This document shows, in pieces, positions 7,282 to 37,870 of a DNA stretch of 64,000 nucleotides. Source of the DNA: Earliella scabrosa. Its lineage: Eukaryota; Basidiomycota; Agaricomycetes; Polyporales; Polyporaceae. The translations under genes and the position numbers were made by a program. The stretch's first letter is position 1. Every line of letters begins with the position of its first letter. The notes beneath the pieces are model-generated. The model had not been told where the DNA came from. It saw nothing but the letters and a program-made list of their open reading frames with translations, and made no database searches. Location: positions 62,001 to 126,000 of the forward strand of contig JABYQQ010000024.1 in NCBI GenBank assembly GCA_022605405.1, given 5' to 3'.

Positions 7282-7289
7282 ATAGACGT

Positions 7290-13690: not shown

Positions 13691-13849
13691 TTGGAATAGT
13701 CTGAACGGGGGATTGGCGAACGACCTCACAACTGGGGCGTGAAAGTGGTGTATGCGCCTTCGGGGGGAGGGGGGGCGGGAAGTGAAGGATAGACGTTCTT
13801 CCGAAACATACGTTCCTCCGGTTCATCTCCACGCTCGCAGGATTAAGCC

Positions 13850-15197: not shown

Positions 15198-15377
15198 GTC
15201 CGGAGGGTCAATCTATGGATATCTGACTGCCATGGCCCGTAGGCGGCCGGTGCGGGCGCATCCACCTGCTCTAGAACGCTTTAGCACGCCAGGATGACTT
15301 GAACGTGGATATCATTAGAATAGCGTAGCGTACATGAGGGCTCAGGGGTTGTGATGCTGACCGCGTACCCCTACACC

Positions 15378-17400: not shown

Positions 17401-17410
17401 ACGACTCACC

Positions 17411-17607
17411 TCCTCGTTTCCACCGAACTGAGCGTACATCTGGCCTTCCTACGCGTCTTCTTCAGCTTCGCGGCGGGAACACTCGGTGGTTCGTCCGCCT
17501 CCGTCCTCTCAGCGGGTCAGCGCAGTGTCCTGATCTGGCGTGAAGATGCGTGCGCGCTGTGTGGGTTTTGACTTCCTGCGTTTGAACATCACTGGGGCTC
17601 CGGCCAT
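17411..17607 (-). pseudogene. GCFC/NTR2-like splicing factor, N-terminal piece
   Basis: The minus-strand ATG at 17607 opens MAGAPVMFKRRKSKPTQRAR, the characteristic basic start of fungal GCFC/NTR2-like proteins. The frame hits a TGA near 17510. The next frame resumes family-like sequence with ADEPPSVPAAKLKKTRRKA, and a third frame gives AQFGGNEE followed by a GTGAGT donor at about 17410. These three pieces match the order in the family, so at least two frameshifts have occurred. The rest of the gene resumes 2.2 kb away at 15197, on the far side of the importin fragment. The gene is divergent from the acidic coiled-coil gene starting at 17809. Confidence 0.65.
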
Positions 17608-17808
17608 TTTTTCAGCCAAGGCAGTTCCAGTGAAGCCGCAGATCTAGAGGGCGATGCACATAAGTATGATAGAGAGCAAGGACAAACGTCCGAGACTCCG
17701 AGTCTTGACTCTCCGTCGCAAACGGCGCGGACCCCGGACACTCCCCGGTATGCGGCAGGTATCCGGGCGTCTAACTGTCTCTCTCGTCTTGCCTCCATTA
17801 ATCTGCAC

Positions 17809-18541
17809 ATGTCCGATTCCGAAGACTACTTCGATGACGATTTTGTTCTCGACGAACACGATCGGGCTGTACTCGACGCCCAAGAGAGGAAGTATTTAGA
17901 AGGGCAACAGCAACAGCAGCGGCTGCAGCGGCAGCAACAACAACAACAACCCGCACCACCACCCACGGCGGAGATGACCCGTACGGCCCTCCGACGGCCA
18001 ATCGAGTCAGATGTGTCCCTTCCTGCAGCAAAGAAGCCCAAGACGGTACATGGGGCGCGATCGGTCGCGCCCACGGAGATGCCGATAGGCGTCGGAGGTA
18101 CGTCTGTTCGTCCGACATGTGTTTCGAGCACCTCCTGCTGTTCCTCCTCATTCTCATCATCGTCGCGTCCCTATTCCTGGCCCTTTAACGTGGCCTCCCG
18201 CTATCGCAGGTTTGCGGAACAGGCGACCGCAATCTACACTAGGACAGATCCAGACTGTCCGAGCTGAGCCGCCCATCCAGAACCCATGCCCCTCGAGCTC
18301 TCCTGGAGTCGCGCCATCACAGTCAAATGCGACCCCTTCTTCCAGTACTATCGACCGACTAGGATCTGTGGATGGTCACTCGCGTCAAGCAAGTGTCCCG
18401 TCAGCAGCTCCACGGCAACCACAGCCTTTGCCCGCGCGCGAAGGTATCCCCGAACGGGATCTTGGAGCAGAAATCAACGCGTTACGGGCTGAGATCCAGG
18501 AGGTGCGTCGTATGGTGAACGAGCTGAGACGCAGTGATTGA
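17809..18541 (+). CDS. Acidic-N-terminus coiled-coil protein, function unknown
   Basis: Two exons, 17809-18097 and 18210-18541, with donor GTACGT and acceptor CGCAG, give about 206 residues. The start MSDSEDYFDDDFVLDE is acidic. A Gln-rich stretch follows (CAG/CAA microsatellite at 17906-17951), then a KKPK-type basic patch, a Ser/Pro linker and a C-terminal heptad-like helix (AEINALRAEIQEVRRMVNEL). The acidic Tyr-Phe-Asp start plus a later coiled coil recalls the N-termini of ATRIP/Rad26-like checkpoint proteins and of Mph1/FANCM-like helicases, but that resemblance is weak and no helicase domain follows. It is divergent, about 200 bp from the ATG of the GCFC-like pseudogene. Confidence 0.65.
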
Positions 18542-18544
18542 GTG

Positions 18545-19860
18545 CAGCAGCGAGCGCGTGCGATGGCGGTGGACGGCATCGAAAAGCGGCGGTCAGTCAA
18601 GCGCTCCGCCCTATCAGCTCCACGATACTCATTCAGACATCCAGACTGTATATGGCACACAGGCGGCGGGCCATATATAACGAAATCCAATTCAGGTTTC
18701 TTTGTATGACGTTGGAAGCGCCAGTGCGAGTCCTGGCCCTCTCGGTGCGTACAACTGTTGTTCCTGACATCTCAGGAAATGCTGACAACGCTTCCACCCA
18801 GATTTATCCGTCTCCTTTCTTGACGCAGCTATTGCTAGATTTCCACTCTCGTTGGGTGACTTGGTCTTCGCAGGTTCGAATTTTCTGTGTCAGACCGTCG
18901 TTGTTGGGCCCTCAAGTATTGTCGTCCATCTCATGAGCGCGTGGTACTACGCATAGCACAGGGATTCATGATCAATATCTGCATACACCTCGCACATTGT
19001 CTTCGTTCACATATCTTCCGTCGATCCTGTTGAGACCAAATTTGATCATGGGAACCCACCAAGTTGACGATATACGCGACCAAACATGCTCGCACATCCC
19101 TCGCCCAAGTAGGCGCAAGTCCACACCTACAGGCGATCTGATCCAGCTGCACATGGTGGCGCCAATATATATAAGGGTTGCTCACCACCCGGACGTGACA
19201 GTGGCGCATGTCTGCTGTTCAACCGGCTCCGCCCGGGCGCCCACAATGGCCACAACTCCTGCCCCGGCCGGCCCTCCCCCCACAAATGCCCTCTAGGCAG
19301 TCCTAGGTGCCGGCTCAGCTATGGTCCTCTGGTTTCAAACCTTACAGTCAAAGTGTGTAGTACATATGACATAGGTATCCAGTCAATTAGAACGTATTCC
19401 AAACCCATTGTTGCCTGCCCGGTCTGTCCAGCTAGCCCACCATCCAGCTTCTGCTTCACAGTGGACGCAGTGAGCTTTGTCTCTACCTGTGAACACTTCT
19501 CATCCCCCTGATGGCCTGTCATTGTTACTGCATGCTCCTAGGGAGACTCACTGCGAGTTGTATTCCAATAGTGGCTCCCGACGCTGGTCTGTATTGAGAG
19601 ACCTCAATCAGCATATGGTGGTGCTGTCGACCTGGTGCTGTGGGAGGCCACTGTATACCGTTACTGCCACTCACGCCGGCTGGTATACTCAGTCTCATCA
19701 AACAAAGCTGGCTGGCCGGGCGTGTCATACTTACGTGAAGGCCCAGATCTACTCCAGCAGCCACACTGCCCCGCTCGCGATCCCCTGCACCGTTCGAGCC
19801 ATTTTGTCAGATCATACTTACTAATAACAAACTCGGGCTACTAGTACATCCAGGGACCAT
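18545..19860. other. Intergenic, left flank of the KDZ/TET island
   Basis: No supported gene. Short open frames on both strands lack splicing logic or motifs. A GGCCGG-rich patch at about 19255-19275 resembles the GGCCGGCC-rich sequence near 35.1-35.7 kb on the other side of the island. I could not identify a clear terminal inverted repeat or target duplication by eye. Confidence 0.35.
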
Positions 19861-19861
19861 G

Positions 19862-21100
19862 TCATAACTCTTCGTCATCGCCAGTCTCTCCTTCCCCGTT
19901 CCCGGCCTGCGCAAAGAGCATTCGGTTATAGTCCAACCAATGCCTTGCCGCGTTCTGCGCACGCATCCCAACTGTCCGGCCGAGAGCACGTCGGAGCTCC
20001 ACGAGTGAGTTCCTTTCGTCAACAAGCTCGGCTAGCATCGTGCGCGAGTGGCTGAGAGCCTGGAGGGTGTGATCGCGCGCCCCCTCGGCTGCTGTGTGTT
20101 TCGAGACGAGCGGGGACAGCCGCGGATTGTCGACTGGGGACGGAGATCGCTCGCTGTTGAGCTCGGAAAATGACAGCTTCCGGGCGGCACGAGCATCTCC
20201 CATTCCTGTCGCTGACGGTCGGTCGGCTCGTGGGGTCCACTCTCCAACGGGCCCGGGACTCGGCAAGCCCGCAAAGCGGTCGATTTGCGGGCTGGACACC
20301 TGGAAGGCGCGGTCGAGCGTATCCCGAGCCGATGTGCTTCCGCCCCCGTCCATCGGCGACGGAGATCGCTCGCGCTCGCTGTTGAGCAGGGCGAACACCA
20401 GCTTTTGAGCGGGTCGAGCATCCCTCACTCCCGTTGCCAATGGTCGGTCGGCTCGTGGAGTCCACTCTCCGACGGGCCCTGGAGTTGGCAAGTCCGCGAG
20501 GCGGTCGGGAGTGCGAGGGCGATCCCCATCCCCTGCAAGTCGTCTCGGCGGAGTTGTAGCAGCGCGGGCCGGCTCGAACCCGCCCTCAGCCTCGCCCACT
20601 GGCCCCAATGGAGGTGATGCGGCTAGCGAGCTGTTGCGCGGGATGGTCGTCGGCAACCGCGCCGGCGCGGTTTGTGCTCGACCGCCTGCAGGCCGAGACG
20701 CACGCTGCGCGTCGCGCGTCAGCTCCATGCGAGACAGGTCGTCCGCGCATTCCAGGGTGGGACTATGCTCGAGACCGGCGTCCTGCCTCTGCTCGCCGAC
20801 AGGCACAGTCGGTGACAAAAAAACCGGGGTCGGGGAGTGGATGCGCACGCGCCGCGATCGCAATGGACCCGTCTCATTTGCGTCCTCGATGTTGTCGACC
20901 TCTGATTAGACGCGATGAGAAAGTTGCTGAAGTACATTCTAAGACGCGTCCTCACCTATCCGCTCGGCAGATGTCGACCGGCCGTGGCCGCTGCGAGTGC
21001 GAGTGCGTTTGCGAGGAACCTTGGGCTGCTATCGGCATCAGAAGACTCCTTTGAGTCAAGGTCGGTCCGAGCTCCAGAGAACACGCACCTTGTTGGACAT
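19862..21100 (-). CDS. Ser/Pro-rich island protein with duplicated segment
   Basis: Three exons: 21089-21100 (four codons, MSNK), 20956-21028 and 19862-20901. Introns of 60 and 54 bp join them, and the coding length of 1125 nt is a clean multiple of three (374 residues). The second exon is highly basic (QPKVPRKRTRTRSGHGRS), a likely nuclear signal. The long exon is disordered and holds two copies of a roughly 50-residue unit containing PGPVGEWTPRADRP and LNSERSPSP. The C-terminus (ALSHSRTMLAELVDERNSLV) is predicted helical. No enzyme motif is present. It starts 155 bp from the divergent Zn2Cys6 coiled-coil gene, so the two probably share a promoter. Its role is unknown; the setting suggests a nuclear accessory protein of the element. 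Confidence 0.75.
20150..20510 (-). repeat. Intragenic direct duplication, about 225-bp period
   Basis: Two diverged head-to-tail copies inside the Ser/Pro-rich island gene. Both encode a D-R-x-A-x-L-P-x-P-G-P-V-G-E-W-T-P-R-A-D-R-P core followed by an Asp-Ala-Arg, Lys-Leu and Ser-Glu-Arg-rich segment. The reading frame is maintained. Confidence 0.8.
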
Positions 21101-21255
21101 GGTTTGGGTTCAGAGGCCGCCGCGAGCTCGTGCGGGCCCGCCGTCCGCGATCTCCGAACGAGCGCCGCAAATTTTGCGTCGGGCGCCTAATCCGAAATCC
21201 GGCTTTCAACATTCCCCTTCACTCACCTGCAAACGAGTCCCTGCACCACTGAACG
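21101..21255. promoter_or_regulatory. Divergent promoter between island genes
   Basis: Only about 155 bp separate the ATG of the minus-strand Ser/Pro-rich gene (21100) from the ATG of the plus-strand Zn2Cys6 coiled-coil gene (21256). Both transcription starts must lie here, so the pair is probably co-expressed. No TATA element is obvious. Confidence 0.6.
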
Positions 21256-24200
21256 ATGGCATCCCGAGACAGCAGCATCCCCACCTCGAGCCGAGATCCA
21301 CCTACCGCTCAGCTCATTGCTGATGCCTCGGATTTTGTCAGCCAGATTCATTACTCTCACGCCCAACGCCCACCGGCTGGTTCTTCGGCTCGACAAAGCT
21401 GGGATCTCCATTTCACACAATGCTGCAAGAATCTTGCGAAGATCCTCGCCCTTGCCGCATTCGACGAGCTTCCCGCATTCGCGATCGGCACGATCTGGGA
21501 GTATAATAAATTGTACTACTCCCGGACGGCCGTGGTCGATGCGGAAGCAATTCGCCCCGCTGAAGATGAGAGGCACCCTGCCCTGGACCCGTCGAACCAC
21601 CGCCGCTTGCGTTACCGACCCAACGAGCGCGGCATCGTCCGGGTGCTGCCGCAGGAGGAGATGAGAAATGTTTGGTGGGAGCGCGAAGTTGAGGGTGCGT
21701 CATCCCCGCTCGTCCTCTCGGACCTTCACGCTCAGCTGCGCTTAGCCTCGGATGAGCGCGACAGCGCGATGGAGCCACAAGATGAGCCCGGACCGTCCAG
21801 GCGAGAGGAGGAATACGAGTCGTCGTCCGGAGAACCCGAGGTCGATGCGGCTGACATCGAAAAACCCGAGCTCCACGCGGCCGACATCGAAGAACCCGAG
21901 GTCGACACGGCCGACATCGAAGAACCCGAGGTCGACGCGGCCGACATCGAAGAACCCGAGGTCGACGCGGCCGACATCGATGAAGACGAGGTCGATGCGG
22001 CCGACATCGATGAAGACGAGGTCGACGAACTCGACGAAGACGACCCCATGTCTGAACCCGCTCGCGGGCGCAAACGCGCCCGCAGTGACCTCTCATCGCA
22101 GTCCGAGGGCCGCTCTCGATCGCGCCGACGACGCTCTACGCCGCCGGCCGCCGGTTCAGAGACCCCGGCAGTGGCCGAGGAGGACACTTTGTATCTCCCG
22201 ATGGAATCATTCCCCCCAGTGGTGCCCATCGTAAGTGCTCTATCGTGCTGATTCTGCGGGCTCTAAGTTGCGAGCCGCATTTCCGACAGGCGGCGGGCTA
22301 CGGATGCGAGAGCTGCCGGAAGGCGCGGACCGTCTGCGAGGTTAACCTCACCACAGGGCAGACATGCACGCGTTGTAAGCAGTCCAAGATCCGCTGCTCG
22401 TTCCGACAGGTCGCGTCGAAGCCGCTTCGCACATACTTGATGTGGCGGATCTGGAAGCTCGGCGAACGCGGTCACAGCGCATGCCGTTTCCTCCCCGCGC
22501 ATTTCAAGTTGCCGGGGGCGGCACCCCCGGATTGGTGGATCGACTTGACCGTGGAGAAGCCCGCGTCGACATCCACCGGCAAGAGCGCGGCGTCTCGCCA
22601 CCGCGCTCGCTCCGTCGGCCTCACGTCGTCCCGGCGGCGATCCAAGACACCGGCAACGCGACCTGTCGCCGCCAGTCGTAGATCGCGGGCGCGCTCGCAA
22701 TCTGCATCGTCCGACCGGGCCGCCGTCGCCGTGCACCCATCCGCAAGAGCCGATGCCGGAGATTCGTCGCCACCATCTGGCGAAGACGACTCGGTCAAGC
22801 AGCTGCCGGTCCGCCAAACGCGCAGCCGCAAGGGCAAGGAGCGCGAGGTCCCGCGTCCGCCCAGCGACGAGAGCACTGCGTCGCACCTGCTAGCGGCAAT
22901 GCGCATTTCATCGCGGACTGCAAGTCCGCCCCCTCCACGCTCCGAACCAACGCCACCAGCAGCCCCCGCGCCTCCCAGCACCCAGCTGCAGGAGTCCTCG
23001 TCTTCCGAAGGCACTGCACCGGCGTTGGAAGAGCCCCGCCTGCAGGGTCGCATCGTGCGCCGAGTTCGTACGGGGCGACCTCAATTACTCATCCATTCCG
23101 AGGGCCTGACACAAAGTCCGAAGCCGCCGCCGGCAGAGGACATTGAAGGGCAGCTCTCGGCGGCCACAGCTGCCGGGGACGGGACCGGAATCGAGGCGAT
23201 GGACGGGAATGCGCGGCAGGTTCTCCGCGTTCCGACAGTGGACGGTAGGGCGATATTCCTCCCATTTCTATCCGCGCAACTGACGTGCTCATTCCCGCAG
23301 ATTCATGGCGCAGTCTCCCGGCCCTTGACGCCACGTCGTCGGACACTATGCTCGAGGTATCTGGCCTCGACTACATGTTCGCGCCGCCGGCTAACTATGT
23401 CATGCCTCGGAACTGGCAGGCCCTCGCCCGCGCCGCTGCTCGTCCGGACCCGATGGTCAACGCCGCCGTTTGGTCCCGCGATCCACCGCCCGTCCCTGGC
23501 ACAGCGTTCCGCATCGGTCCTGCGACATCCCGCAGCCTGGAGCATCTTCGCGACCAATTGCGCCGCCTGGACCACCTCCGTCCCACATTCCAGAATGCAG
23601 CCGCTGAAGCCGAACAGCTCGCCCGGCATATCCATAACGCTCGACTCGCTGCTTCCACGCAGATCGCAGAGACCGAGGACCCCGACGCCGCAATTCGCAT
23701 CCTGCTGACGGAACATGAGGAACTTGCTGCCCAAAGCCGGCGCTGTGCGCAACTCATTGCAGACGTCGCGACATCGCTTTCCGCGGTTACTGAGGCGTTC
23801 GGCCAGCTTCCGGCAATTCCTGTCGATGGCCGCGCAGTTGCGGAGCTGCAAGACCTGGTCCACCAGCTGCGCGCCCTCTACGGCGAGACTTGGCAGCGCT
23901 TCGATGCCCTCCGGGAAGACATTCGCCCGGTGCGCGAGGAGCTCCATCGTCTGCGCGTCGACTACCAGCAAGCCATCGAGATGGTCGAGCAAGTTCCAGC
24001 CGCCGCTGCGGAGTCCGTGCAACCGGTGGTTGACCGGCTCTACGACCGAGTTTCCAAGGGGATCGAGCAAATCGGCGACAGTGTCCGGAAGTCCCTCGGA
24101 CAGCTCGCACAGGCACTCGATGATGTCACGTTGCACGCGGAGGACAGGGTTCGCCTTGTCAACGCTCTTTGGAAACCGCTGTCCGACGCAATGACCGAAG

Positions 24201-24637
24201 CGGGCCAGATTCGCGGCACGTTTCCTCGTCCGTCATCTCCTCCGGCGCGGCTCTCCGATCTCATCGCTCGCCTCGAGAGGGTGGAGGCCGAACTCAAGCC
24301 CAATTCCCCTCCCCTCCAGCTCGCCGTCGATGACCTCGTTCAGCGCGTGCGGCGATTGGAGCTTGCCTCCACTGGTCATCAGCCCGAGGATGCCCAGGGC
24401 AGTGAGCCGCGACCGAGAGACATCGCCGCTGCTCTGGCTCATCTTCGAAGCCGTGTCGAGCATCTGGAAGAACATCCCGCCGGTGAGTCCATAGACGGGC
24501 GTCGGGCGGATGTTCGGGATTATCTACGCGAGTTCGGACTCGGGCCCGAGGAGCTGACTCGGCTCGGGCGATCGACCATCGCACGCGGCACGCAGTTCAC
24601 CTTCCCCGGTCACGATTTCGGCATGTCGCATTCATAA
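21256..24637 (+). CDS. Zn2Cys6 coiled-coil protein of the KDZ island
   Basis: Exons 21256-22230, 22290-23244 and 23301-24637 total 3267 nt (1088 residues) with no frame problem; the donors are GTAAGT and GTAGGG. Residues about 1-180 are globular. About 185-260 hold an acidic tandem repeat. Residues 331-361 form a complete binuclear zinc cluster, C-x2-C-x6-C-x9-C-x2-C-x6-C (CESCRKARTVC then CTRCKQSKIRC). A long Ser/Arg/Pro-rich disordered region follows. From about residue 690 there is extended alpha-helical, coiled-coil-like sequence (EHLRDQLRRLDHLR, LRALYGETWQRFDALREDI). Zn2Cys6 clusters are fungal DNA-binding modules, so site-specific DNA binding with coiled-coil dimerisation is inferred. 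The context points to a regulator or end-binding partner of the transposase rather than a host metabolic regulator. Confidence 0.85.
21830..22030 (+). repeat. 33-bp in-frame acidic tandem repeat
   Basis: About six copies of a unit coding for EVDAADIEEPE-type 11-mers inside the Zn2Cys6 coiled-coil gene. The last copies drift to DEDEVDAADI. The unit is divisible by three, so copy-number change would keep the frame. Confidence 0.9.
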
Positions 24638-24746
24638 TTCGGACTCTCTATGTAATATACCGTGTCATTGTTACTCCGTCGTTCGAATGAATGGGAGACA
24701 GCCTGCAGTTGCCTCCGCTTACACCAAGTCCGTATCCGCGCAGCGT

Positions 24747-27700
24747 CTACCTGCGACCTCCGCGCGATGACCGAGTCTGGCGCCCGCCTTTGGCCGGTGG
24801 AGGCTGGCCGACTCGTCCCGCATCGTCTCGCCCGTCTTGCTCATTAGTCGGCACTGGAACGCGACTGCGAGTGCGCCGCCCGATGCCCTCAGTCGCCATG
24901 TCCGCGGCTGCGGTCGCCGCTGTGACTGTCTCACTTCGAGCGCGTTTCCGACTGTTGCGCGTCGGACGAGATGGTCCCGGCTCTCCTTCATTCAATGTCG
25001 GTAGATCCTTCGCAGGCTGCGCAGTACGCGACGACCCTGATTCCGCGTGCTCGTCCTTCTGTTTCGAGGATTTCGAGCGCGCAGCCGGTGGGTTCCCCGC
25101 CAGCACGTCCGCGGGGTTCCCCGAGTTATCCGACGCCGCGGTCGCCCCCGGCTCTGCTCCGGTGCGGGCGCGGAGTGGGCGCGCGGCAGGAGGACGATGC
25201 TTGACTGAAGTGCAGACTTCCAACAGCTCTTCCTGAAGCTGGAAGTCCATCGTCGAAGTCGCGAAGAAGGACGGCAGATCCGCGGGAAGGTCGTCCGGAT
25301 CTTCAATCGTCTGCACACGCATGAGGTCCCGCAGGAGGAGACCCATGGTGAGACAATAGCGTTGGGCCACCTCCGCCGATGTCGGCCTTTGCGGGCCGGC
25401 TTTCAACCATTCCACTACACGGCCGAGGGCACCCGACTGCTCGTGAAGTGTCCTCGGGAGATGGGAGGATGACATCGACCAAGTCGCAAACTTCACAGGG
25501 TCTCTTCCAGTGACCTTGACGTCTTGAATCAACTGCACAAAGACTGTCAATACGCGAACCGGGCTGCGAGCGTGCCGACACTCACCAACGGATGAAGCCG
25601 GTCGAGCATCTCGCGGAACGCGTTCTGCTCGCTCAACGCATGGAGGAACTGGAAACGAGCGTCACCGGTGTTTGCAACGCCGCCAGGGCAGGTGGGCATG
25701 GGTGTATGCGAGGACTTCGCCTTCTCCTTTCCTTTCGCCCGCCTCCGTGAGCTAGTGGGTTGCGGAGGGAGCTCCGGGTCGGGCTGCAGCTGCGAGGTTG
25801 AGGCGGATAGCCTCGGGCTTGGCTCGCGGTCGCCTCTCCGGCCACCTATCGTGCTCTTTGACCGCGATGGTGGGGCGCGTTCGAAGCCCATGTGTAGGTC
25901 GCGGGTCTCGGTTGCATCGTCTTCTGCGTCGGCTTCGTCTTCGTCGGACGGCGTGCCCGCTATCGTGGACTCTACGGCGGCAAGATCTTCGTCCAGGTCC
26001 TCGTCCTCAAGTCCGTCGCCATCGTCTGAAGACGAGCCGTCGCCTTGGAGCTCCTTCCATCCCTCGTCGTCGGAGTCCGACGCCTCGGACTTGCTCCACT
26101 CCGCCTCCGCCTCCTCCTCCACGCGTTTCTTCTTCTTACCCTTGCCACCGGCCTTCGCTGCACGCTTACCATTCCCTCCAGCCGCCCGAACCGCCTTCTT
26201 CGCCTTCCCCAGCTCGCGGGTATACTCCTGAGTCGCCTTCTCTAGGCGCGTGAGGGCAGCTCGCTTGTCCGAACGCCCCCGCCCACTCCGCGCGTTCGCT
26301 GCACGCCTCGCAATGTCTTCGATGTCCGACGCGTCAACATCGGGACCGTAATCGTAACTGCGCGCGTTGTCGTCCGCGGGACTCTTGGCCGGCTTCACCG
26401 CCGAGGGCTGTGGGTTCCGGTAGACCGCGTCCTGGATGGTCGCATGGTCTCCCGTCCCGTCGCGATACGCAGACAAACGGAACCGACGAGGTTCCTCGTC
26501 AAGGCCATGGGCAGCGGGGTTCTCCATCCTGACGACGTGATCCAGAAAGAGCTGAAGGTGTTCGGCCGGCATGTGCTCAGGGTCGTACAGTAGAACACCC
26601 TCAGGGAGCATTCCAGGAGCGAAAAACTTGTCGGGTTGCTCCTTGAAGAGTGCCCACGGCTGACGGCGGAGTGACTCCTTGCCACCGGCCCACTCTAGAA
26701 GATTCTCAGCGTCACACAGCGCGGTTGTACCGGTTATTGACTCACGGTGGTGTATGGACATGTACTCCCGAATGATGGCCTTGCATGTCTTGGTGGACAG
26801 GGAGTTGCCCTGAGCGTCGCGATTGAAAAGTATGGGCGTTCCGTCGTCATACCTCTCGAAGACGATGTTGGGCTTGGAGCTCTTCTTTTTCAGCGTCTCG
26901 TGCAGCTCGGTGGTCTTCTCGGTACTCTTCGCGGGATTGATGATACCGGGGAAGAACGCCCAGAAGTTCTCGCGGAACTCGGCATCCCAGCTCTTCATGT
27001 CTCGAAACAGCGGCACCTCGGGGTTTTGCTTATGCAGCATCTGCGACACGTCGTAGCTGGGGCTTGTCAGTATCAAGGCTCAAGGCGAGGTGTGGATAGA
27101 CAACTCACACGACCCCTCGAAACTCGCCCTCTTTGTCCTCAAAGAGACCGTACATGAACAAAGCGACCTTGCATTGGTCCCAGAACATCTCGCAAACCGC
27201 GCGCATCCAGGATAACGCGCGCCGTTCGGCGATTCTGCAACACAGTGGGGTCATTAGTTTCAGCGGATTCGGGAATTGCATATGGTCACTAACTCGGGTT
27301 TGTACTCGTCGTCGGGACCGACTTCATTGAACTTGTGGCACAATGCTATCCACTTCTTGCGCGCTTCGTCGCTGAGGTTCTCCCACATGCGCGTCCATGT
27401 CTCATTCCATATCTGATGTAGCATGGGTCGGACTCGGAGGTGTCTGCAATTCGCGACGGAATGAACGTACCTTGATGTAGTGATCCGATGTCTCCTCCAC
27501 CTCCTCTGCTACCGCCGCCTTGATCTTCTCGGCTTCCGCAAGCGCGAATACTCGCTTCGGCGTGTAGTGCTGTACAATTCTCCTGGGCAACCGAGTCTTC
27601 TTCCCTTGCCGGCTGTTCTGCAAAAAGTTCGTGACTTTCTGCGGATGAAGCGGTCAACAGCGTCAATATCTTGAGAGAGCCTGAGTGTGGGAGGACTCGC

Positions 27701-27915
27701 AGCCGCTGGACGCAGGACGGCCATCTCACCTTGAAGATACAAATTTCGGCGTACTTGTCATCTTCGCGCAGGTTGCGCATCGTCATCAGATGTCTAGTCA
27801 TCCGAAGACGATAGGCCTCCTTGTCTCCATGGGGAGTCTGACGATACGAGTACAAGTGCTCCTCGAGATACGTCTTTTCAGCCTTGGTGAGAAACGAAGG
27901 ATCTTGGACCGGCAT
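24747..27915 (-). CDS. Large KDZ-island protein of unknown function
   Basis: At least six exons read from ATG 27915 (MPVQDPSFLTKAEK): 27730-27915, 27471-27638, about 27301-27416, about 27115-27240, about 25579-27060 and 24747-25528. Donors include GTGAGA, GTACGT, GTTAGT and GTGAGT, and all joins keep the frame. The first 200 residues are helical and Trp-rich (TWTRMWENLSDEARKKWIAL), vaguely HMG-box-like. A globular domain follows (FRENFWAFFPGIINP to EEPRRFRLSAYRDG). The middle is a Lys-rich and acidic disordered region. The C-terminal part is helical (EWLKAGPQRPTSAEVAQRYC) and ends in a basic tail. I do not recognise the family. It is divergent from the TET/JBP gene, and placement between that gene and the Zn2Cys6 gene suggests an element-encoded nuclear protein. 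Confidence 0.75.
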
Positions 27916-28222
27916 TGGAATGTTAAGTTGAGAGGATTTATCAGGACTGGGACGGCAGGGCCGTAGAGATGGAGTAGCTTGAAGGTCATGATGCAGCACG
28001 CTGGATTTTTATTGCGTTCCTGTACTCCATCGCACTGACTCAACGTGCAGACCGACCTAAGTCGAACAGATTGACGCCAGGGCGTATGCCCACATTGGGT
28101 AATGATCAATGCAGTGCCTCAGATAGCCTCATGGCCGCCTCGTGTGCAACCTCGCAGAACACGATTGTACTGCGCTCTTGCTCGCACAACGACCCGTCCT
28201 TACCTATCTGCTCACACTCCCA
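27916..28222. promoter_or_regulatory. Divergent promoter of the TET/JBP gene and its neighbour
   Basis: About 307 bp separates the two ATGs, 27915 (-) and 28223 (+). Both 5' ends must lie here, which suggests joint regulation of the dioxygenase and the large unknown protein. No specific operator was recognised. Confidence 0.55.
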
Positions 28223-29538
28223 ATGTCGAACCCCGGCGAGAAGCGCGAGATGATCGCCCACTTCATATGCAAGTTGTATGAATACTACTTACACGTTCAG
28301 ACCGCCGCAACTGCGGGCAGCGAGACGATGGTGGCCCTCCCCGATCCGCCCATCAATATCAGCACCATTCTGGTCGAAGAAAGTCATGCGGTGGCGGCCC
28401 AACTGGCACGCGCAGTGCGGAACAAATGTGCGATATGCTGGGTAATCTGATTTCAACCAACATCCGGAACTAACGAATTTCCAGACGTGGTCACCTGGAA
28501 GGCCGACGAGTATGCGGCGGCCCTCAAAAAAACCGCCGTAGGCTCCAAAGACTACGAGGACAATCTCCTGCGCAAGTTCCCGCCGCTAGGAGATGTCAAC
28601 GACGTTTTGAGAGGAGAACTCCCGTTGAAGACCGTCCGAAAGTCTGCTGTATTTGCAGATTGCGAAGACAATCTCCTCGCGTGGAGTCTGCCCGGAATTC
28701 TCTCCGGGCGCATTCAGGTACGCCCCATCGCAGGTTACAGTTCGATCGTCCCGCTGACACCAGCCCCAGAATATCCTCATGCGTTCCACTCTGATGATCG
28801 AGAGTCATCTCACCCGCGACCGCAACGCCGGAAGTGCCGCCGACGTCAGAGGTTGGCGCAAGGCGGCGCGTTTCTTCGCGCCGGATGGTGCGATCACGCC
28901 TGGCCAGGTGTTTTTGGGCCCTGCTTGGTTTCCTCCAGGACACGGGGTGAGTCCGCCAAGCCGCGAGACAGTGCTTGCATTGATTTCCCGTGCCGCAGCC
29001 TCCTAGATATCCCATCATCGTCCTCTCCCCGACCAGATCCCCGGAGGCTCGGGATTGGATGGAGAGTATGCAGGAGGTCGGTGGCATCTTGGACGGCATT
29101 CTCGCGGTCGCGCATCCCGAGCAATACGAAGCCGGCCGGGAAGTCTTCCGCCGCTTGTACGCGGACGATCCTGCGAGTCGTCGGATTGCGGACCAGTGGC
29201 CCTCCGTCATGCATGCCCTGCATGTAATCGCGAATCGGGAGAGCATATACCATCGGGACACCAACGGGCGGCCGCAGTGGTATGACCTCTTGGCGACTGT
29301 GGGCACGTACGGCGAGACGGGCGTGTTATCGATGCGCACTCTCGGAGTGAGCGTGCCGTACGATTCGGGCTCGGTCGGGCTAGTCTGCAGTCGGGTAGTC
29401 TCGCACGGGGTGCCTGCGGTGGTCCCCGACCGAGTCTGCTATGCATGGTTGATGCGGGAGGACGTGCTCGCGAGCCTCGGCGTGAGCGCGCCGGGCTGGT
29501 CGCAGGGGGGCCGGCGGGTGAACCGGTTTGATTCGTAG
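28223..29538 (+). CDS. TET/JBP-family 2-oxoglutarate/Fe(II) dioxygenase
   Basis: The family oxidises the methyl group of 5-methylcytosine (TET) or thymine (JBP) in DNA, using Fe(II), 2-oxoglutarate and O2. Exons 28223-28427, 28485-28717, 28770-28946 and 28999-29538 total 1155 nt, 384 residues, all in frame. The catalytic fold is in the last exon. ANRESIYHRDTNG supplies the HxD iron ligands (about His290 and Asp292). The distal ligand is about His341 in SRVVSHGV. DRVCYAWLMR (about Arg350 or Arg358) supplies the 2OG-binding arginine. PPGHGPPRYPI and WYDLLATVGTYGE also match fungal TET/JBP proteins as I recall them. The N-terminal 200 residues are helical and typical of the stand-alone fungal form. 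All expected catalytic residues are present, so it looks active. It sits directly upstream of the KDZ transposase. Substrate is inferred, not shown. Confidence 0.85.
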
Positions 29539-29649
29539 CACTCTGTATCCAACTCTCTCGTCAACATCCTCCATCTCTACGTCGTGCGCTCGCCCGAAAT
29601 CGACCCTGTCCTCCTCGCCGCATTCTACTCTCTAGTCAACGCGCCGATA

Positions 29650-32600
29650 ATGGTTGGGCATCGAGGGCCGAAGCCTCAAGGCCGCTTCAAGGAGCTAACC
29701 GCCGATGTGCGCGAAACGCGCCGAGGCACTCAGACAGTCGTCAAGCGAGTGCGCACGGAATACGTTCAAGACTCCCGGTCGGGTCTCCCGACACCTCCTC
29801 CTGCTCATCGTGCCGGCGATCAGACGATGCAGGGACCAAGTCAGTTTGCGGACGACCGATTCAACGAAATCCGAGCGCCGTCGGAGACCCCACGGAAAGG
29901 CAAGGTGAGCGGGTTTCGCGAGTCTCATGGTGGGCTCGGGTCGAACGGCATCGACAGTCTCAGAATGACTACCAACGCGAATTCCTCACGGTTCGCGACA
30001 AGTACCTCGCCATCGACCTTGAGCGCGAATCGCCGCCCTCTTCCGGAGTCGGAAGCTGCGGACATCCCGCGGTTTGGCGCTGCGTCACCTGCATTCGGAC
30101 GCCATCGTATTGCACAGCCTGTCTCAGGAGCAGCCACGAGTTCCTGCCGCTTCACCGCGTCCAGTTCTGGGAGGGGTCGTACTTTCGGAACGCATGGCTA
30201 CGGCAAGTCGGAGTCCGGATCCACTGCGGGCACGGCGGACTATCCTGCCCGAACCCAGATGCCGACGACGGTTGCCCCGCGGGCCAACAGTCCGCAGACC
30301 TCGCTGCATGGGACGATGACACTCTCCTCGATGAAGAGGAGGTTCCCGGTGAGAGCCTGTTCTTTGTCGAGGAAGAGTTGGGTGACCTGGAGGACGAGGA
30401 CGGGGAGGTCGACGTTTTGCTGGTTGATGAGGATGGAGAACCCGACGGCGTGGCGATCGCAGACCTTCCGGACTTTGAGCGGCATGACACACACCTTCCC
30501 GCCGCGGGAAACATTGTCGGGTCGGACCGGATGGTTTGCGTCGTGGATATCAACGGTGTGCACGAGCTGCCGATTGTGTTCTGCCGATGTGCGAACGCCG
30601 AACGAGACGATATCCAGCTCCTACGGCTCGGCTTGTATCCCGCGTCCATACACCGGCCTCGAACTGCATTCACCATCCGCGTCCTCGACGACTTCCTTCT
30701 CGAGAACCGCGAGTGCCATACATCGGCACGAAACTATTTCAATAAACTCCGCAGGACGACCAACGCGGCCTTCCCCCACATTGTTCCGGTAGGTCGCTCC
30801 GCCTCGCTTCGATGGCCCGAGCTGACAGACGTTGCAGGATCGCTACAAAGAGCTGTTGCGGCTCTCCCGCCAATGGCGCAACCTGCAGATGCGGAAGCGT
30901 GCCGGCTTTGGCCATCGTACCGACCCGATCAAGCCGGGAGACCTCGCGATAAGATGTCCGGCCTGCCCCGATCCCGAACTCAATCTGCCGTCCGACTGGC
31001 AGGACGATGAGCAGCAGTACGTGCACCCGAACCGGACGACCCTGCCGCGCTGATGTATCATATACTTACAGATGGAAGTATATCCGCTCGGTCGTCCTCG
31101 ACGGTAATTTCTCCGCGCAGCACAGGCGCATGAAAAATCCCGAGGATGACGTTGCCTTCGCGGATGGCCATTGCTTCATGGTTGAAGATGCCCCGTACAA
31201 GGCGCATCTGAAGGCGGCAAAGGAGTTCAAGGAGGTGCGAGGCTCACCCAGCACTGCGGCGCATGACTGACGCATCCAGTGCAGGATAACACCTGTAACG
31301 ATCACCGTGCGGTGTTGACATCGAAAATGGAGCGCGGAAATCTCGAGGCCACCGGAATAGGTGCGGCGGCATGCTCCCGCCACGGATTCTTCAGTCCGCA
31401 TACCTGCGTGGACTTTGATAAAGGAGAGGGGTGCGTCACGGACTCCGCTGCCTCCTCGCGTTGCGCCCTCCGACTGACTCATGACCGGCCAGTCAACGGC
31501 ACATGGATTACGCGACCAATTGGGTCTTGGCCTTCCTGAACGGGATTGCGACGGTGCTCCTTCTCTACGACATAATGTGCCAGTACTGCGTCCGTTTGCG
31601 CGACCGGTTTGAGCAGAGCCCACACCTACACTGGCCCCCGGGAATAAAGCTCCTGCGGGGCATCGGTCAGTTTCATGTACACGGTCATCTTCCGCGATGC
31701 TTCGCCCGATATTCAGCAAACTTCATCAAATTTATCGGCGTGCAGGACGGGGAGATTTTGGAGACCCTCTGGGCCCGTTTGAACGAGATCGCGGGGAGCA
31801 CGCGCGGAATGTCGTCGGCACATCGGCGGGAGGTAATCGACGATCATATGAACGACTCTAATTGGATGAAATTGACGCGAATGGGTGAGTGGATCGATGG
31901 ATGAGTGGTGCGGCTACTAAACGACGCACAGTCCATGCGCTCAGTCGGAAATGGCGCCGGGTTTGCAAGGAGCTGCGTCCAGCCGTGGAGGCTTTCGATC
32001 TTCTAACCCGAGCGGCCGGCCCCGAACTCGTAGCGACATGGACCGCCGATGCCGAGGCAGCGGATGCCACTCGCGACGAAAACATCGAAGCCATGGATAT
32101 TTATGACATACATAAGAAGCCTCGTGAGTCGAAATGATAATGGCCCCGGAAGACAGCCGCTAACTGACCGAAGTCCCGACGCGGAAGGACGTACAAGCAC
32201 TCCTGGTCGAAGAGGAGATGCTCGAGGCTCCCGATCAGGGCAGCAGTGCTGCTGAGTGGATTTCCGACGGCCTCCGTGTCGAACAGAGAAAGTACGTACA
32301 CTCTATGTCCAATGAACTCCGACCTAACGGTGCCCGTGCAGGCTGACTGTCGCATTCGCCGCCCGTACACTCAACTTGTCGACGGATGGCAAGAACCGGC
32401 TCAGCCTCGCCCAGCAAAGGCAGAAGCTGACCGCGGCCATCGCGTCGTTCCATCGCGCAGCGCAGGAGCACCTTCCCTCCGGACTCTTCGGGGCCTCGCT
32501 CGGCCTCTCTGTCGATCCGACCGACCTCGGGGCTGAATGGGACGCTTTCGGTGAAAGCGAAGCCGACGCCGCGGAAACTGCCCCGGACGACGATGTGCTT

Positions 32601-33423
32601 GCCCCGGAACGTCAGGCCATCGCGTTACCATCCACCCTTGGTCTGCTCTTTTTACGAAGTCACGACCTGCTGCATCTCGCCGTGAAGGAGCGGCAGCTGA
32701 GACAAGGGCAGATGAATGATGCGCTCCAGGGGATCCGCACGGCCATCGGGTACAAGTCTCTGTTGTATCGCACCAAGATCCGGAAGGCACCGTCATATCG
32801 TGCGAAGCTGCGAAGCTTTGACGATGTTCACGTTGCGGATGAATCCGTGCGGAAGCACGTACGCATCTACATGCAGGCTCGGAAGGCGCTGGAAAGACTT
32901 TACGATGCAGGGCGGCCTGATGAGGCCGCAGAACGGGATACGCTCATGGCAAAGTACCGTCCGATCCTCAAGACCGACTTGAAGGTGGAGACCGCAATCA
33001 TCGAGGCGTTCACCGGCGGGTTGCGAGACAAAGCTTCGGCCTGGTTCTGGCACTTGGAAGATAACGAGGCGGCCAAAGGGAGTGGATGGATGAGCGGACG
33101 TGAGTTGTCTGGCCGTCCGTGTTCTTGCCTTCGGGTGCTGCACCGACTGACTCTCACTGTCACCCTAAGTGCGACGGATGCTCTGGCTGCGCGCGTATGC
33201 CCGCAAGCAGCGATGGGAGGAAGAGGAAATTATTGTCCGGTTTGAGATGGACTGTACCGAGCGGTTCTTCCGTCGGTATGCCGACAGATGGCGAACTTGG
33301 GGTGGCAGCGGGCTCTCGGTCGGTCACGCTTGCTATGCGGCGAAACAGCGGGGGATGTGGCTGGGCCTTGCAGATCATGCATCCCGGTCTTTCTCGCATG
33401 TTCTGGCTGTCGTTAAACCGTAG
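29650..33423 (+). CDS. KDZ-superfamily DDE transposase with CxC2 cluster
   Basis: Ten exons (29650-29904, 29964-30788, 30838-31016, 31072-31234, 31285-31430, 31493-31884, 31932-32123, 32174-32291, 32342-33099, 33170-33423) total 3282 nt, an uninterrupted 1093 residues. The N-terminus is basic (ETRRGTQTVVKRVRTEYVQD). Residues about 117-145 form a cysteine cluster of the KDZ-associated CxC2 type (WRCVTCIRTPSYCTACLRSS, then PLHRVQFW). Catalytic candidates are Asp430 in VVLDGNFSAQHRR, Asp549 in LLLYDIMCQY and Glu610/Glu613 in QDGEILETLW. Flanking family hallmarks are MDYATNWVLA, GQFHVHGHLPRC and a C-terminal region with LPSTLGLLFL and RQGQMNDALQGIRTAIGYK. It would cut and paste the element in the nucleus. 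The first ATG is chosen; the open frame begins slightly upstream with a non-ATG codon. The intact frame and introns suggest a young copy. Confidence 0.9.
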
Positions 33424-33489
33424 ATTTATCCTGTACATGTACGGACGCTGTCTTGCGAAAGTCAATCCCAGCAAACCCAACCAATGTGA

Positions 33490-33512
33490 CGTCCGTGACG
33501 TCACAATGGCAC
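33490..33512. promoter_or_regulatory. TGACGTCA palindrome near the small island gene
   Basis: Two neighbouring GTGACGTC motifs, the second a perfect TGACGTCA 8-mer, lie about 60-80 bp upstream of the ATG at 33568. This is the CRE/ATF-type bZIP site. It may be a promoter element of the small downstream gene; function is inferred from the motif alone. Confidence 0.4.
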
Positions 33513-33567
33513 CGCAAAGCCGAACCCGATCAGCGAATGTCTTCGCCAATACCCTCCACCACACGAA

Positions 33568-34288
33568 ATGCCGAGACGCGGTCGGATCCTCGCGGCCGCT
33601 CGACTGGAGCTTCTGCTCATCACTTGGCGCGTCGGACAGGCGCTCCGATGCCTGGAGGATGTCCCCGATCGTATGACGGAGATGCGATGGAACCACGGCA
33701 TCGCACGGGAAATGGTAAGTAAGACTCCGACGCTGCCGAACCACTCTGACACTGCAGCGGCAGTGGTTTGCAATTGAAGGCATGGGCATTGCAGCAGCCG
33801 TCGGCGGTAGTCTGGCGCGGGCCGAACCCGGAACCGGAAACGAGCCTCTAGCAAGCCTGCTCGCTCACGCGTCGTGGAACAGTGATCTCAGCCTGACGTT
33901 CAACCTAGCCACATTCAACAGGCCGGCCTTTCTGGCCGTAGTGAAATCGGACGTACCCGAGCTGGACAGATTGGATGCGGCGCGAGGCCAGGAGCGGTGG
34001 TGGACTTGGGCGGGCGACCCGATCGACGATGCACCCCGCCCAACTTGGTGGCATGTCCCGGTCGCATTCGTCGTGAGTATCCGTCTCCCTCCTGTTGATT
34101 TCAGCCTGACGGAACCACTGCAGCCGCGGCCCGTCGCCATGCATACGTCCGACCTGGCGGACATGCATCGTCAAGCAATGCACCTGGCAGGAGAGTTGGA
34201 TAGAATCGTATTATCGAAGGCACGCATGACGGAAACACTTACCGAGCACGTAGCAGAGCTGGAGCGGGATCTGTACGCTGTTGCATAG
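33568..34288 (+). CDS. Small helical KDZ-island protein, unknown
   Basis: The first exon from ATG 33568 (MPRRGRILAAARLELLLITW) is joined through a GTAAGT...CACTGCAG intron (33715-33758) to an exon reading RQWFAIEGMGIAAAVGG and LASLLAHASWNSD. Probably another intron at 34072-34114 or so leads to the final exon, ending ETLTEHVAELERDLYAVA at 34288. It is about 200 residues, mostly helical, with a C-terminal coiled-coil-like helix and no known domain. It follows the transposase by 145 bp on the same strand. The exon joins, especially the second, are less certain than in neighbouring genes, and the start could lie further upstream. Confidence 0.5.
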
Positions 34289-34289
34289 T

Positions 34290-35850
34290 GTCTGATTGGA
34301 ATACTGGGCTTGCCGGACCGAACCTCAACTGCCTCCCGGAGACCTGTGCTCCGTGCTCGCTGGATAGGATAAGGATCTAGCGTGCTCTGCATGCCCTGTA
34401 GGATGGGAGACCTCAAAGTACCGACCGGCCGAGCGCATCACCAGTGCCCGATCGGTCCGTGAACGAGAGGTCAGTCTGTCTCATCCAAGCTAATACGACG
34501 GTAATCCCGGGCGGGCGATGCACTAGCCAGCGATATCCGTGCGGTTCCCGTGTGCCACAGCAAGTGCCGAGCGAGCTGTCGCGGTAGCGGGCATCGGGTG
34601 CCCTCCAAACCGGCCGATGGCGGGCAGAGTGCGGGCGGATGTTCGGAATCCAGAGCTAGCCGGGTGCAGGTGCAGGTCATCGTTAGCGGGATGCGAAAGA
34701 CGGTGCATGAAGGGAGCTCGCGAGCGACCTAGAGGAAGACGATGCCACAGCGCCGAACGACGGGATGACCGGTCGTTCGGGACGAGTGCAGTATTCTCGA
34801 TACGCCGGGGAATTTCTGGGATACTGTTTATCTCAGTGATCGTGCATTGTAGACGACTCCGTGCGGAGTTGATCGCGGAAATCGGGCGGCTAGGGGTCCG
34901 CAACGCGAGGGATCGCGCGAGAGAACGGCGACTGAATGGTGAAGAGAGCTGGACGATGTAGCGGCGAGATTCTCGCGAGGTAGGCCGGAGGTTGCACAAA
35001 ATCTAGTACGGCGCACCAAACTGGGCGGTAGTCGCTGCCGCACAGGGCCGAGCACCTGCATGTGCACACGAGCTATGCCGCCGGGATACCTGCATGTACG
35101 CACTTCCCAGGCCGGCCGGAGACTTGCATGGACGCACTTCCCAGGCCGGCCGGGAGACTTGCATGTACGCGGTGCCTGGGCCGGCCGGATAGTCCACGCA
35201 ACCTACGCCCGATGCAAGTACAAGGAGGAGGAGCAGATGCGGTTGTGAAGGAGGAGGTGCAGAGGTGGTCATGCGGATATCATGAGGTGTAGGAGTCGTC
35301 GCTCAGTGACGTACGTGGAGAATGAATGCACTTACTGGGGGGCCGGAAAAGCGGAAGCAGGATGGGACGTGACCTGCAGCGGCTGGATGGTGTCCTATCC
35401 CCGTGCATGACCCAACTAGAAGCCCATACACCCAATGGCAATGGACAGAGCCGTATAGATGCGACACAGCCGCAGGAGGAAGGCGTGGATGGGTGGCTGG
35501 GCCGGCCGGGCATTGTCCAAGGCTAGCATCACTGGCCCGGCCGGGCATGGTCGTGTCTTCCAGACATATCAGCAGTAAAACCTTACCAGATGCAGGAATT
35601 CGCGCAGACAGACATGGTATGCACGGCACATGTGCGGTGCTTGATGATTTTCGAGCAAGGGAGGCTGATATGAGGGAGGTAGCTTCAGGGACCGGGTGGA
35701 GGCCGGCCGGCCCAGGCGCCGTGGACATGGGAGACCGCCGGCCGGGGCCGGGTGACAAGCAAATATCCGGTTCTGTCACATCCGGTCGAGCACAACATCT
35801 GAGTATTGTAAGGCAATGGACTGTGGTCAGGTCATCATTGACTCATACTG
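34290..35850. other. Right flank of the island, GGCCGGCC-rich
   Basis: No supported gene up to the KDZ-like fragment at 35.86 kb. The right boundary of the element presumably lies here or shortly after 34.3 kb, but I could not pair an inverted repeat with the left flank. Several GGCCGGCC/CCGGCCGG octamers occur between 35.1 and 35.75 kb, including the short repeat listed separately. Confidence 0.4.
35078..35195. repeat. Short tandem repeat with GGCCGGCCGG and TTGCATG
   Basis: Three degenerate copies of roughly 40-45 bp, each holding an AGGCCGGCCGG-like block followed by GAGACTTGCATG and ACGC. They lie in the flank of the KDZ/TET island. GGCCGGCC octamers recur at 35.5 and 35.7 kb without the rest of the unit. 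Confidence 0.7.
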
Positions 35851-35859
35851 TTCCCCAGG

Positions 35860-36305
35860 CTTTTCTTCTCGCAACCTTCCCTCACGAGTTGCCTCGTTGT
35901 CAGCCGTCATTCTGCTTCTTTGACAACAACTGCATCCTACTCAAGCACATCCTGGCGTCGGGCGAGACCCGGCTCTCAAACGTTGGTCTCCCCGTCGACG
36001 TCTTCCACGCTACCGTCAAGCACAAGGATACCGACGCATTCTGCGCAATGAACTGCAACCCCGCATCATTTCCCGAGCTCATGGACGGTGCGAAGTGGTT
36101 GTTCAACTCTTCAGTAGCGGAACAGACCAATGGCTGGTACGGCAAGTTCCTCCCCATCGTGCGTGAGATGACTCGAATCCACCACAACTTCTTCTTGGAT
36201 GAGATGGTATCGGTGTACAATGACTGGAAAGTGTCGACACTATCGCAACGGGCCGCGAGGCCACGTACCATTCCTCTGGAAGAGTTGCGTCTACCTAGGA
36301 AGTAG
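35860..36305 (+). pseudogene. 3' fragment of a KDZ-like (CxC5/CxC6-type) protein
   Basis: After a good acceptor (GTTCCCCAG near 35858) an open exon encodes CFFDNNCILLKHILASGE, PVDVFHATVKHKDTDAFC, NCNPASFPELM, WLFNSSVAEQTNGWYGKF and HNFFLDEMVSVYNDW, ending with a stop at 36305. This is the C-terminal signature of basidiomycete proteins annotated as CxC5/CxC6 cysteine clusters associated with KDZ transposases; I recognise it by pattern only. The upstream open frame does not resemble the family and contains the GGCCGGCC repeats, so the N-terminal part is missing. It is a truncated relic and differs from the complete transposase at 29.6-33.4 kb. Confidence 0.65.
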
Positions 36306-36309
36306 TACT

Positions 36310-37085
36310 AGTAGCTTCGTCTAGCCGTCGCACCGTGGCACTTGGCTCATTTATTGTATCACCTGGCTGTTTGTTTGCTATCAGATTCCCCTGCATGTTC
36401 ACCGCCTTCTCCTTCATGCCGATAGTAATAAATGGAACAATGTCTGGTTACCCATAGTTCTCAGGTGAACAATGTCAACTCCATGCGTGTTAACAGGCAA
36501 GTCTTGGACACCCGCCCAACTAGTCCTCCCAAGATACGATCTATCGGCGGGGAGATGGGTCAATAATATGTGTGCATCAGTGGATTTGACCATATTGGCC
36601 ACCGGGGTCATGGTGATGGCTGGACAGTGGACACATGGAGCGGCGCGGGTGGGAGAGCATGGCGCGATCGTGCGTGGCGTGGGACCCAGGTGTCAGCGCT
36701 TAGCAATGGTCCCACTGCGCTCAGCTCCCGCTGCTCAGCCCTCCTCATCTGACATCAGCCCTTCAGGCCCACAAATACGCCCATCCTAGCATGCGATGGA
36801 GACCGGTGCGGGCTCCTGCTGTGCAGTTCATCTCCTCCGAGGCATGTGGGTCTTGCGAGGATGACTCAAGGCATGTCGCTAGCTTGTGCCGTTGGTGTCT
36901 CTAACCTCTGGCCCCCGTTCCGACCATGGCGTGGCGGCGCGAACCCCAGGCGATGCGCATATTGAGGAAGGTAAGCATCTTATAGTTCACTGGATGTGTG
37001 GAGGTGTTGGTTTGAAGGGACACGATGTGGAGCGGTGCCGCGCGTTGGCAGGGAATCGACTCTTACACACCTTCCCCGGCAGAGA
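36310..37085. other. Intergenic, nothing recognised
   Basis: Short open frames only; no splicing logic, RNA gene or repeat was recognised. Confidence 0.4.
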
Positions 37086-37089
37086 TTGT

Positions 37090-37870
37090 TATGGCTCCGA
37101 AAGACTATGACGAGCTCCTCGACTGCCTCTCTACCATGTCCAAGAGACTTGTGAGTCTCCGTTGCTCAAAATACTGTCTGACTTCCACTACTCTCATGCA
37201 CCTGCTCGCCCATGCTATCCATTCACTCGACTCGCCCTGCCTGGCAAGAGCGTGGGGAGACTACGTGAGTACTGGCGCCATCGTTTGCGCCCCCGAACTC
37301 ACTGACGTGAGCCTGCTCCCTTCCCTAGGGCTTGCAAACCCCGCCCCGCACGGTCCAGACCCGGACAAGATGACGCGGCCCAAGAAGAACCCGGCCACTC
37401 AGAGCATGGACTCGCAGCACGGTCGTGGAGCAGAACTATCCGCACACATACTATGATGTTGAGACGGGCAAGCACGTTCAACCCCCAAGTCGACGATTCA
37501 TCCCTCCCGCCGATCGTCGGCATCGCTATCCTCGAGTTCCGCGTCGGTCGAGGTCGGTCAAGGTGCGCATCCATTTACTTACACTTCATATCTCGAGAGT
37601 GGTGCTCAACGCATCGGGCCATTGGTCGCTCAGTTCATGGCCCACAAGTTGCTGTTCAATCCGGCCTGTCGCGCGCAAATTTGAAGCTCACCGACGAGTT
37701 CGACCTCTCCGACCTGGACATTCCCCTCGCGGTTTCCACCTCCAGGCCGGCGTTGGACGAGTACCCCAGTGGACCGGCGGCCATATCACGCAACAAAAGC
37801 GAAGAGAAGTTGAGATGCACGCACCAAGAACAAACGCCACAGCGTAGCCTTCCCAAGGGTCAAGGTTCAT
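37090..37870 (+). CDS. Possible small multi-exon gene, unassigned
   Basis: A candidate first exon starts MAPKDYDELLDCLSTMSKRL (about 37090-37149) and ends at a GTGAGT donor. Later plus-strand pieces look mildly coding: one reads VEQNYPHTYYDVETGKHVQP near 37430-37490, and a Leu/Asp-rich piece lies near 37685-37740. I could not join them into one clean frame, and no family is recognised. It may be a decayed gene or chance open frames. Confidence 0.25.

Follow-up and report, generated by a model that had tools for sequence, protein, structure and literature searches.

A compact block of six genes in the wood-rotting fungus Earliella scabrosa (Polyporales, Polyporaceae) joins a TET/JBP DNA dioxygenase to a KDZ transposase, which raises the question of whether the block is a mobile element and how its dioxygenase might serve it. 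The block lies in a window of 64,000 nucleotides (C24:62001-126000) of the analysed assembly (51.7 Mb, 48 contigs); positions below are those of the window unless a contig is named. We conclude that it is a real, recently mobile transposon of an already known kind. Its ends are defined exactly, an empty site is available, and a group of sites in the ends makes it possible to test how TET finds its own element. We consider it reasonably probable that this TET+ KDZ transposon, of the Kyakuja kind, uses its dioxygenase to keep itself expressed and mobile, the enzyme likely oxidising the element's methylated CpGs.

Extent, ends and copies of the element

The window copy (W) matches a copy on the same contig (U, C24:16636-33339) at 99.8% with sharp edges. 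U lies 64.5 kb upstream in the same orientation, and a base-by-base alignment over 16.7 kb revealed three substitutions and one 30-bp repeat unit, in gene B, as the differences. Further copies with ~70% DNA identity were found at C9:1717003-1732958, C11:632159-647985 and C19:266381-295467, the latter two being 99.8% identical to each other across 13.3 kb. All five copies have CACATG at the left and CAATGGACTG at the right; they terminate in 5'-CA..TG-3', and their outer bases form no inverted repeat beyond CA/TG. Local alignment of W recovered an imperfect inverted similarity of ~105 bp, starting ~27 bp inward.

19150-35823, plus strand: whole transposon (W), 16,674 bp, 5'-CACATGG...CAATGGACTG-3'; both edges common to U, C9, C11 and C19
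19150-19279, plus strand: left terminal conserved block, 80-81% identical to the left ends of C9, C11 and C19; holds one CCGGCCGG site
35703-35823, plus strand: right terminal conserved block, 85-88% identical to the right ends of C9, C11 and C19; holds a CCGGCCGG pair 35 bp apart

The initial annotation had proposed a transposon island of 14.4 kb. The island is supported by five copies that share gene set and terminal sequences; the extent proved too short, as non-coding ends of 712 bp (left) and 1,535 bp (right) lie outside the genes in W, so that 14.4 kb is the gene span only. In the C19 copy, gene B is split by a 13.25-kb insertion (C19:268921-282172) whose long frames resemble gag and pol; judged from these reading frames, the insert looks like a long terminal repeat retrotransposon.

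Target duplications, an empty site and rearrangements

U is flanked on both sides by CATGTCA and the C9 copy by ATCACCA, each a 7-bp target duplication. At C21:242001-242500, both flanks of U (211 + 296 bp, 100% identical) are joined over a single CATGTCA: this is the pre-insertion site of U. The initial annotation had suggested that long-read data from other strains could reveal an empty site; this one lies within the same assembly. It shows recent movement, and the near-identical copies are young.

The other copies differ in this respect. The C11 copy has CGGTAAG on its left and TGCAATG on its right, and the C19 copy carries the same two 7-mers swapped (TGCAATG left, CGGTAAG right), a pattern that fits the trace of an exchange between two inserted copies, although misassembly would look alike. 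At distances of 1-4 kb from the C11 copy, parts of the right flank of C19 are found again with 99.9-100% identity. At W the flanking 7-mers differ (CCAGCTG left, TGGTCAG right). The expectation of target duplications was thus borne out for U and C9, found exchanged between C11 and C19, and contradicted at W.

The flanks of the window and of U fall within a block that is repeated in inverted orientation on C21, with 99-100% identity at the five sampled places where the C21 and C24 blocks were compared. The two blocks are either haplotypes or segmental duplicates. The inverted repeat spans roughly 100 kb with breaks, and includes window positions 4000-19149, 35824-37700 and 48055-49175. Weak matches to genes B and F flank both U (C24:15682-16041 and 37571-38089) and its empty site (C21:242884-243243 and 237384-237902), so U apparently inserted into an older relative of the same element group.

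17500-19149, no strand: left flank; matches C21:163357-165006 (minus) at 99.8% and reaches precisely to the element edge; synteny also at window 4000-8000
35824-37700, no strand: right flank; matches C21:140263-142139 (minus) at 100%, beginning precisely at the element edge

Instead of the element, C21 holds 21.2 kb of different DNA at the W site: the flank match ends at exactly 19149 and resumes at exactly 35824. The right flank begins inside a gene whose C21 counterpart has a CxC6 domain, and the W junction cuts this gene. The 21-kb difference at W and the swapped duplications of C11 and C19 suggest that large elements of this type cause rearrangement.

Gene content and conservation

The six genes run in the order A(-) B(+) C(-) T(+) K(+) F(+) and are all intact in W and U.

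19862-21100, minus strand: gene A, Ser/Pro-rich protein, 374 aa, 3 exons; dN/dS 0.26-0.35
21256-24637, plus strand: gene B, Zn2Cys6-like protein with a helical C-terminal half, 1088 aa, 3 exons; dN/dS 0.16-0.19
21828-22027, plus strand: 30-bp tandem repeat in gene B; W and U differ by one unit
24747-27915, minus strand: gene C, large protein of unknown fold, 934 aa, 7 exons; dN/dS 0.09-0.10
27916-28222, no strand: C-T intergenic stretch, 307 bp between the divergent genes C and T
28223-29538, plus strand: gene T, TET/JBP dioxygenase, 384 aa, 4 exons, HxD motif HRDTNGRPQWYD; dN/dS 0.13-0.15
29650-33423, plus strand: gene K, KDZ transposase with CxC2 cysteine cluster, 1093 aa, 10 exons; dN/dS 0.04-0.05 where computable
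33568-34288, plus strand: gene F, small protein, 206 aa, 3 exons; dN/dS 0.11-0.15

That these genes lie back to back at 19862-34288 had been read correctly in the initial annotation: the intergenic gaps are 155, 109, 307, 111 and 144 bp, and our gene models returned exactly the product lengths it had given (374, 1088, 1093 and 384 residues). The 307-bp stretch is probably a promoter shared by C and T. Gene order and strand are kept in the gene models of W, U, C11 and C9, and the DNA of C19 is collinear. The model of gene C is letter-for-letter equal to the NCBI protein C8Q76DRAFT_802566.

Pfam searches placed T in Tet_JBP (PF12851, 3.1e-14) and K in KDZ (PF18758, 2.3e-46) with CxC2 (PF18803, 1.3e-24), all over cut-off, confirming the TET/JBP and KDZ identities assigned earlier; A, B, C and F returned no Pfam domain over cut-off. 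Zinc clusters of the Zn2Cys6 type follow the spacing CX2CX6CX5-16CX2CX6-8C, and the six cysteines of B (residues 330-366) are spaced CX2CX6CX9CX2CX6C in W, C11 and C9. Gene C has no Pfam HMG match, and a fold search with its low-confidence structure model gave no clear match. T aligns with the CcTET structure chains 7vpn and 8jkk (4e-27), including the HxD motif. Counted from H326, T of W carries Gly and Asp at the places of CcTET G331 and D337; C11 has Ser at the Gly place. A TET of the AG type is marked by HxD, by Gly or Ser at CcTET 331 and by Asp at CcTET 337.

Among W, C11 and C9, dN/dS (the ratio of non-synonymous to synonymous substitution rates) ranged from 0.04 to 0.35 over the six genes, values that are rough because synonymous distances are at least 0.96. 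Columns in stretches of less than 30% identity were excluded, and the W models of C and F still held one 51-base intron each; the models of C11 gene A and C9 gene K were incomplete, and the K distance between W and C9 was saturated. By this comparison, all six genes look kept as proteins by purifying selection between the three families represented by W, C11 and C9.

The TET family and its neighbours across the genome

The assembly holds 39 Tet_JBP matches at E ≤ 0.001 (29 over the Pfam cut-off) and 129 KDZ matches counted exon by exon. For the census of loci we used one row per locus, that is 81 of the 129 KDZ, 11 of the 34 gene C, 23 of the 49 gene F and 20 of the 37 gene B matches, with all 39 TET matches, ten of them below the Pfam cut-off. 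The omitted rows were mostly second pieces of the same gene, and included at least two weak separate KDZ places (C23:539222, C2:988044). As matches at most 25 kb apart were merged, neighbouring elements share a cluster at C14, C24:553-600k and C26. With the 81 KDZ rows of the census, 25 of the 39 TET matches had a KDZ neighbour within 10 kb; the distance between TET and the KDZ or F match exceeds 20 kb at the C1 and C6:1.9M loci.

B, T and F occur together, in constant order and orientation, at 18 loci with two architectures. Seven have the layout of W (B+ C- T+ K+ F+), where K separates T from F; the other eleven read B+ T+ F+ K-, K being inverted and located beyond F. B-T-F thus stays constant as the transposase gene shifts in position and strand, a pattern that ties B and F to TET and not to the transposase. 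Among the 21 TET matches outside these loci, two, at C14:277k and C6:92k, have F but lack B, and seven are without any of the neighbours sought. Weak TET matches, below the Pfam cut-off, also lie within ~4 kb of an opposite-strand KDZ, without B or F, at C17:1180862, C19:368265, C20:170817, C35:85409 and C6:1118005; on their sequence matches, these five pairs are a third, smaller arrangement.

Candidate recognition sites in the ends

The ends of the element are rich in one short motif, CCGGCCGG, with two CpGs in every site. Counted from the nearer end, sites occur at +115, -121, -86, -322 and -287 in W, C11 and C9, those of the right end forming pairs 35 bp apart; W and C11 have extra sites spaced 34-35 bp.

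19264, no strand: left-end CCGGCCGG site, +115 from the left end
35112-35188, no strand: array of three CCGGCCGG sites, spacing 34-35 bp
35502-35544, no strand: CCGGCCGG pair, 35 bp apart; at equal distance from the right end in W, C11 and C9

Per 900 bp of ends, W, C11 and C9 hold 8, 7 and 5 sites, vs shuffle means of 0.05, 0.08 and 0.03, and in none of 2000 shuffles was the observed count reached for any of the three. Across C24:1-126000, 17 of the 18 sites are inside W and U (15 of these within 750 bp of an end), leaving one in the remaining 92.6 kb. Since the right-end sites are located past the last gene, they are not promoter sites for any known gene that the element carries. We regard the CCGGCCGG sites as candidate sites of end recognition, to which the zinc-cluster protein of the element may bind.

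A trace of methylation

Transitions in CpG context account for 16 of the 26 substitutions between near-identical copies (all three between W and U; 13 of 23 between C11 and C19 over 13.3 kb). Bases within CpG make up 21%, and the excess has a binomial p of ~1e-5. This pattern suggests past methylation of the elements. The CpG observed/expected ratio is 1.19 in the genes, which are not depleted, and 0.57 in the left 712-bp end (19150-19861).

How the dioxygenase may serve the element

Our preferred model links these observations as follows. The KDZ transposase would cut at the CA/TG ends, and the CCGGCCGG sites would be bound by the CxC cluster of the transposase or by the element's own Zn2Cys6-like protein B. 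Methylation of the CpGs in these sites would block binding, and TET, guided by B and perhaps by F, would hold them open. The predicted activity of TET on methylation marks would likely help the element escape silencing. A far-reaching version, in which the parts would form a complete self-targeted demethylation system (a zinc-cluster protein reading the phased CCGGCCGG pairs and bringing TET, site methylation acting as a switch that the element resets, and B-T-F serving as a portable unit), seems to us rather unlikely.

Several observations weigh against the preferred model. Comparison of the flanking 7-mers found no target duplication at W. The CpG pattern points to past methylation and not to its removal by TET, and the CpG-poor left end looks as if it were poorly protected. 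U is without the -322 site, lost through one CpG change. The sites at +115, -121 and -86 fall in blocks that are 80-88% identical anyway, so it is mainly those at -322 and -287 that indicate constraint on the motif, and the binder, whether B or the transposase, is putative. The Zn2Cys6 call on B in the initial annotation held for the cysteine spacing but not for the Pfam Zn_clus cut-off of 21 bits, the scores being 12.7 for the whole protein, 17.2 for the W piece and 17.9 for the C9 piece (a partial alignment). T of the C9 copy has Ala at the place of CcTET G331, departing from the AG type at this residue.

Other explanations differ widely in how much of this evidence they account for. TET and its partners might act genome-wide and untargeted, with CCGGCCGG serving as transposase binding sites only; the sites are located in the element ends, where transposase sites usually are, and the KDZ protein has its own cysteine cluster, CxC2. 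We consider this possible if doubtful, given that B and F stand beside TET in fixed order at 18 loci of two architectures while the transposase moves, which points to a functional link with TET. The six genes are intact in W and U, constrained and densely packed, as those of a host gene cluster lying near a decayed KDZ transposase could be, but the same gene set recurs at several unlinked loci, the copies sharing their ends, and target duplications and an empty site are present as well; we give this reading practically no credence; it is refuted by the empty site of U on C21.

The remaining alternatives concern how the copies came to lie where they do. Segmental duplication, rather than transposition, could be read from the arrangement of W and U, which share a contig and an orientation, are separated by 64.5 kb and lie inside the block repeated on C21. 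This is very improbable: the W/U similarity ends at the element edges, U has its own 7-bp duplication and empty site, and diverged copies on other contigs end at the same edges. For W alone, the junction was probably produced by recombination between two copies 21 kb apart, with deletion of the intervening DNA, or by an aberrant transposition in which one element end became linked to a distant site, and not by a clean insertion. C21 matches the left flank to 163357 and the right flank from 142139, so that 21.2 kb of C21 is absent at W, with junctions at the exact edges and unlike 7-mers; the 1.5 kb of C21 adjoining the left junction is single-copy in the assembly, and the swapped 7-mers of C11 and C19 are the mark of exchange between copies. 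On the other hand, no TET or KDZ match was found in C21:142140-163356 (1.5 kb read at each edge), so no second element is left there, and the W junction may reflect an assembly error or a later insertion on C21.

TET-carrying transposons of mushrooms are already known. As to how their TET could reach the right DNA, the set of copies described here offers a concrete, testable answer, with CpG-containing candidate sites and a candidate reader encoded beside TET in constant order.

Comparison with known systems

In basidiomycetes, TET/JBP genes are reportedly associated with KDZ transposases (Iyer et al. 2014), in elements that are also reported to encode additional proteins, including one with a divergent HMG domain; we therefore do not claim extra cargo as such to be new. 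The closest known elements are the TET+ Kyakuja of Polyporales, described in the available text of Kojima 2025 (PMC12730594) as carrying KDZ and TET/JBP genes, with 7-bp duplications, CA..TG ends, no terminal inverted repeats and a TET of the AG type. All of these features are common to those elements and ours: KDZ with TET/JBP, the 7-bp duplications, the 5'-CA..TG-3' termini, the lack of terminal inverted repeats and, in W, the AG-like TET residues, so the kind is already known. The assignment to Kyakuja is drawn from the termini, the duplications and the TET residues. The 8-bp duplication of Zisupton/Dileera was not found, those of U and C9 being 7 bp long with the eighth base unmatched on either side.

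According to the available text of PMC12730594, it had previously been unclear whether such TET genes sit within complete transposon structures. Beyond what characterises TET+ Kyakuja, the 16.7-kb element described here has six genes, among them a Zn2Cys6-like gene kept next to TET, together with CCGGCCGG arrays in its ends and an empty site. The terms "subterminal" and "Zn2Cys6" are absent from the main text of PMC12730594, whose supplementary table may list further genes or this species. A literature search for CCGGCCGG sites or a zinc-cluster partner in such elements gave none among the top matches, with few subscription papers covered.

KDZ1-KDZ3 of Cryptococcus neoformans are mobile elements of ~9-11 kb with CxC1, terminal inverted repeats of 139-241 bp, and duplications of 8 bp (KDZ1) or 4-8 bp (KDZ2 and KDZ3), as given in the accessible part of PMC12810828, where no TET gene is mentioned for them. 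Our element resembles them in its mobility and in combining a KDZ transposase with a cysteine cluster, and differs from them in their long inverted repeats, their CxC1 and their duplication lengths. In Pleurotus ostreatus, intact KDZ transposases are preceded by CxC2, like gene K here; the accessible part of that report (PMC7641404) mentions no element boundaries, duplications or TET cargo for them.

For the proposed targeting, the VANDAL/VANC system of Arabidopsis serves as a working analogy only. VANC is not known to be a dioxygenase, and the VANDAL transposase and proteins are unrelated to those of this element. In that system, as far as the accessible parts of PMC5735166 and PMC10398659 describe it, a transposon protein binds the transposon's own non-coding, often tandem-repeat DNA, and methylation is lost.

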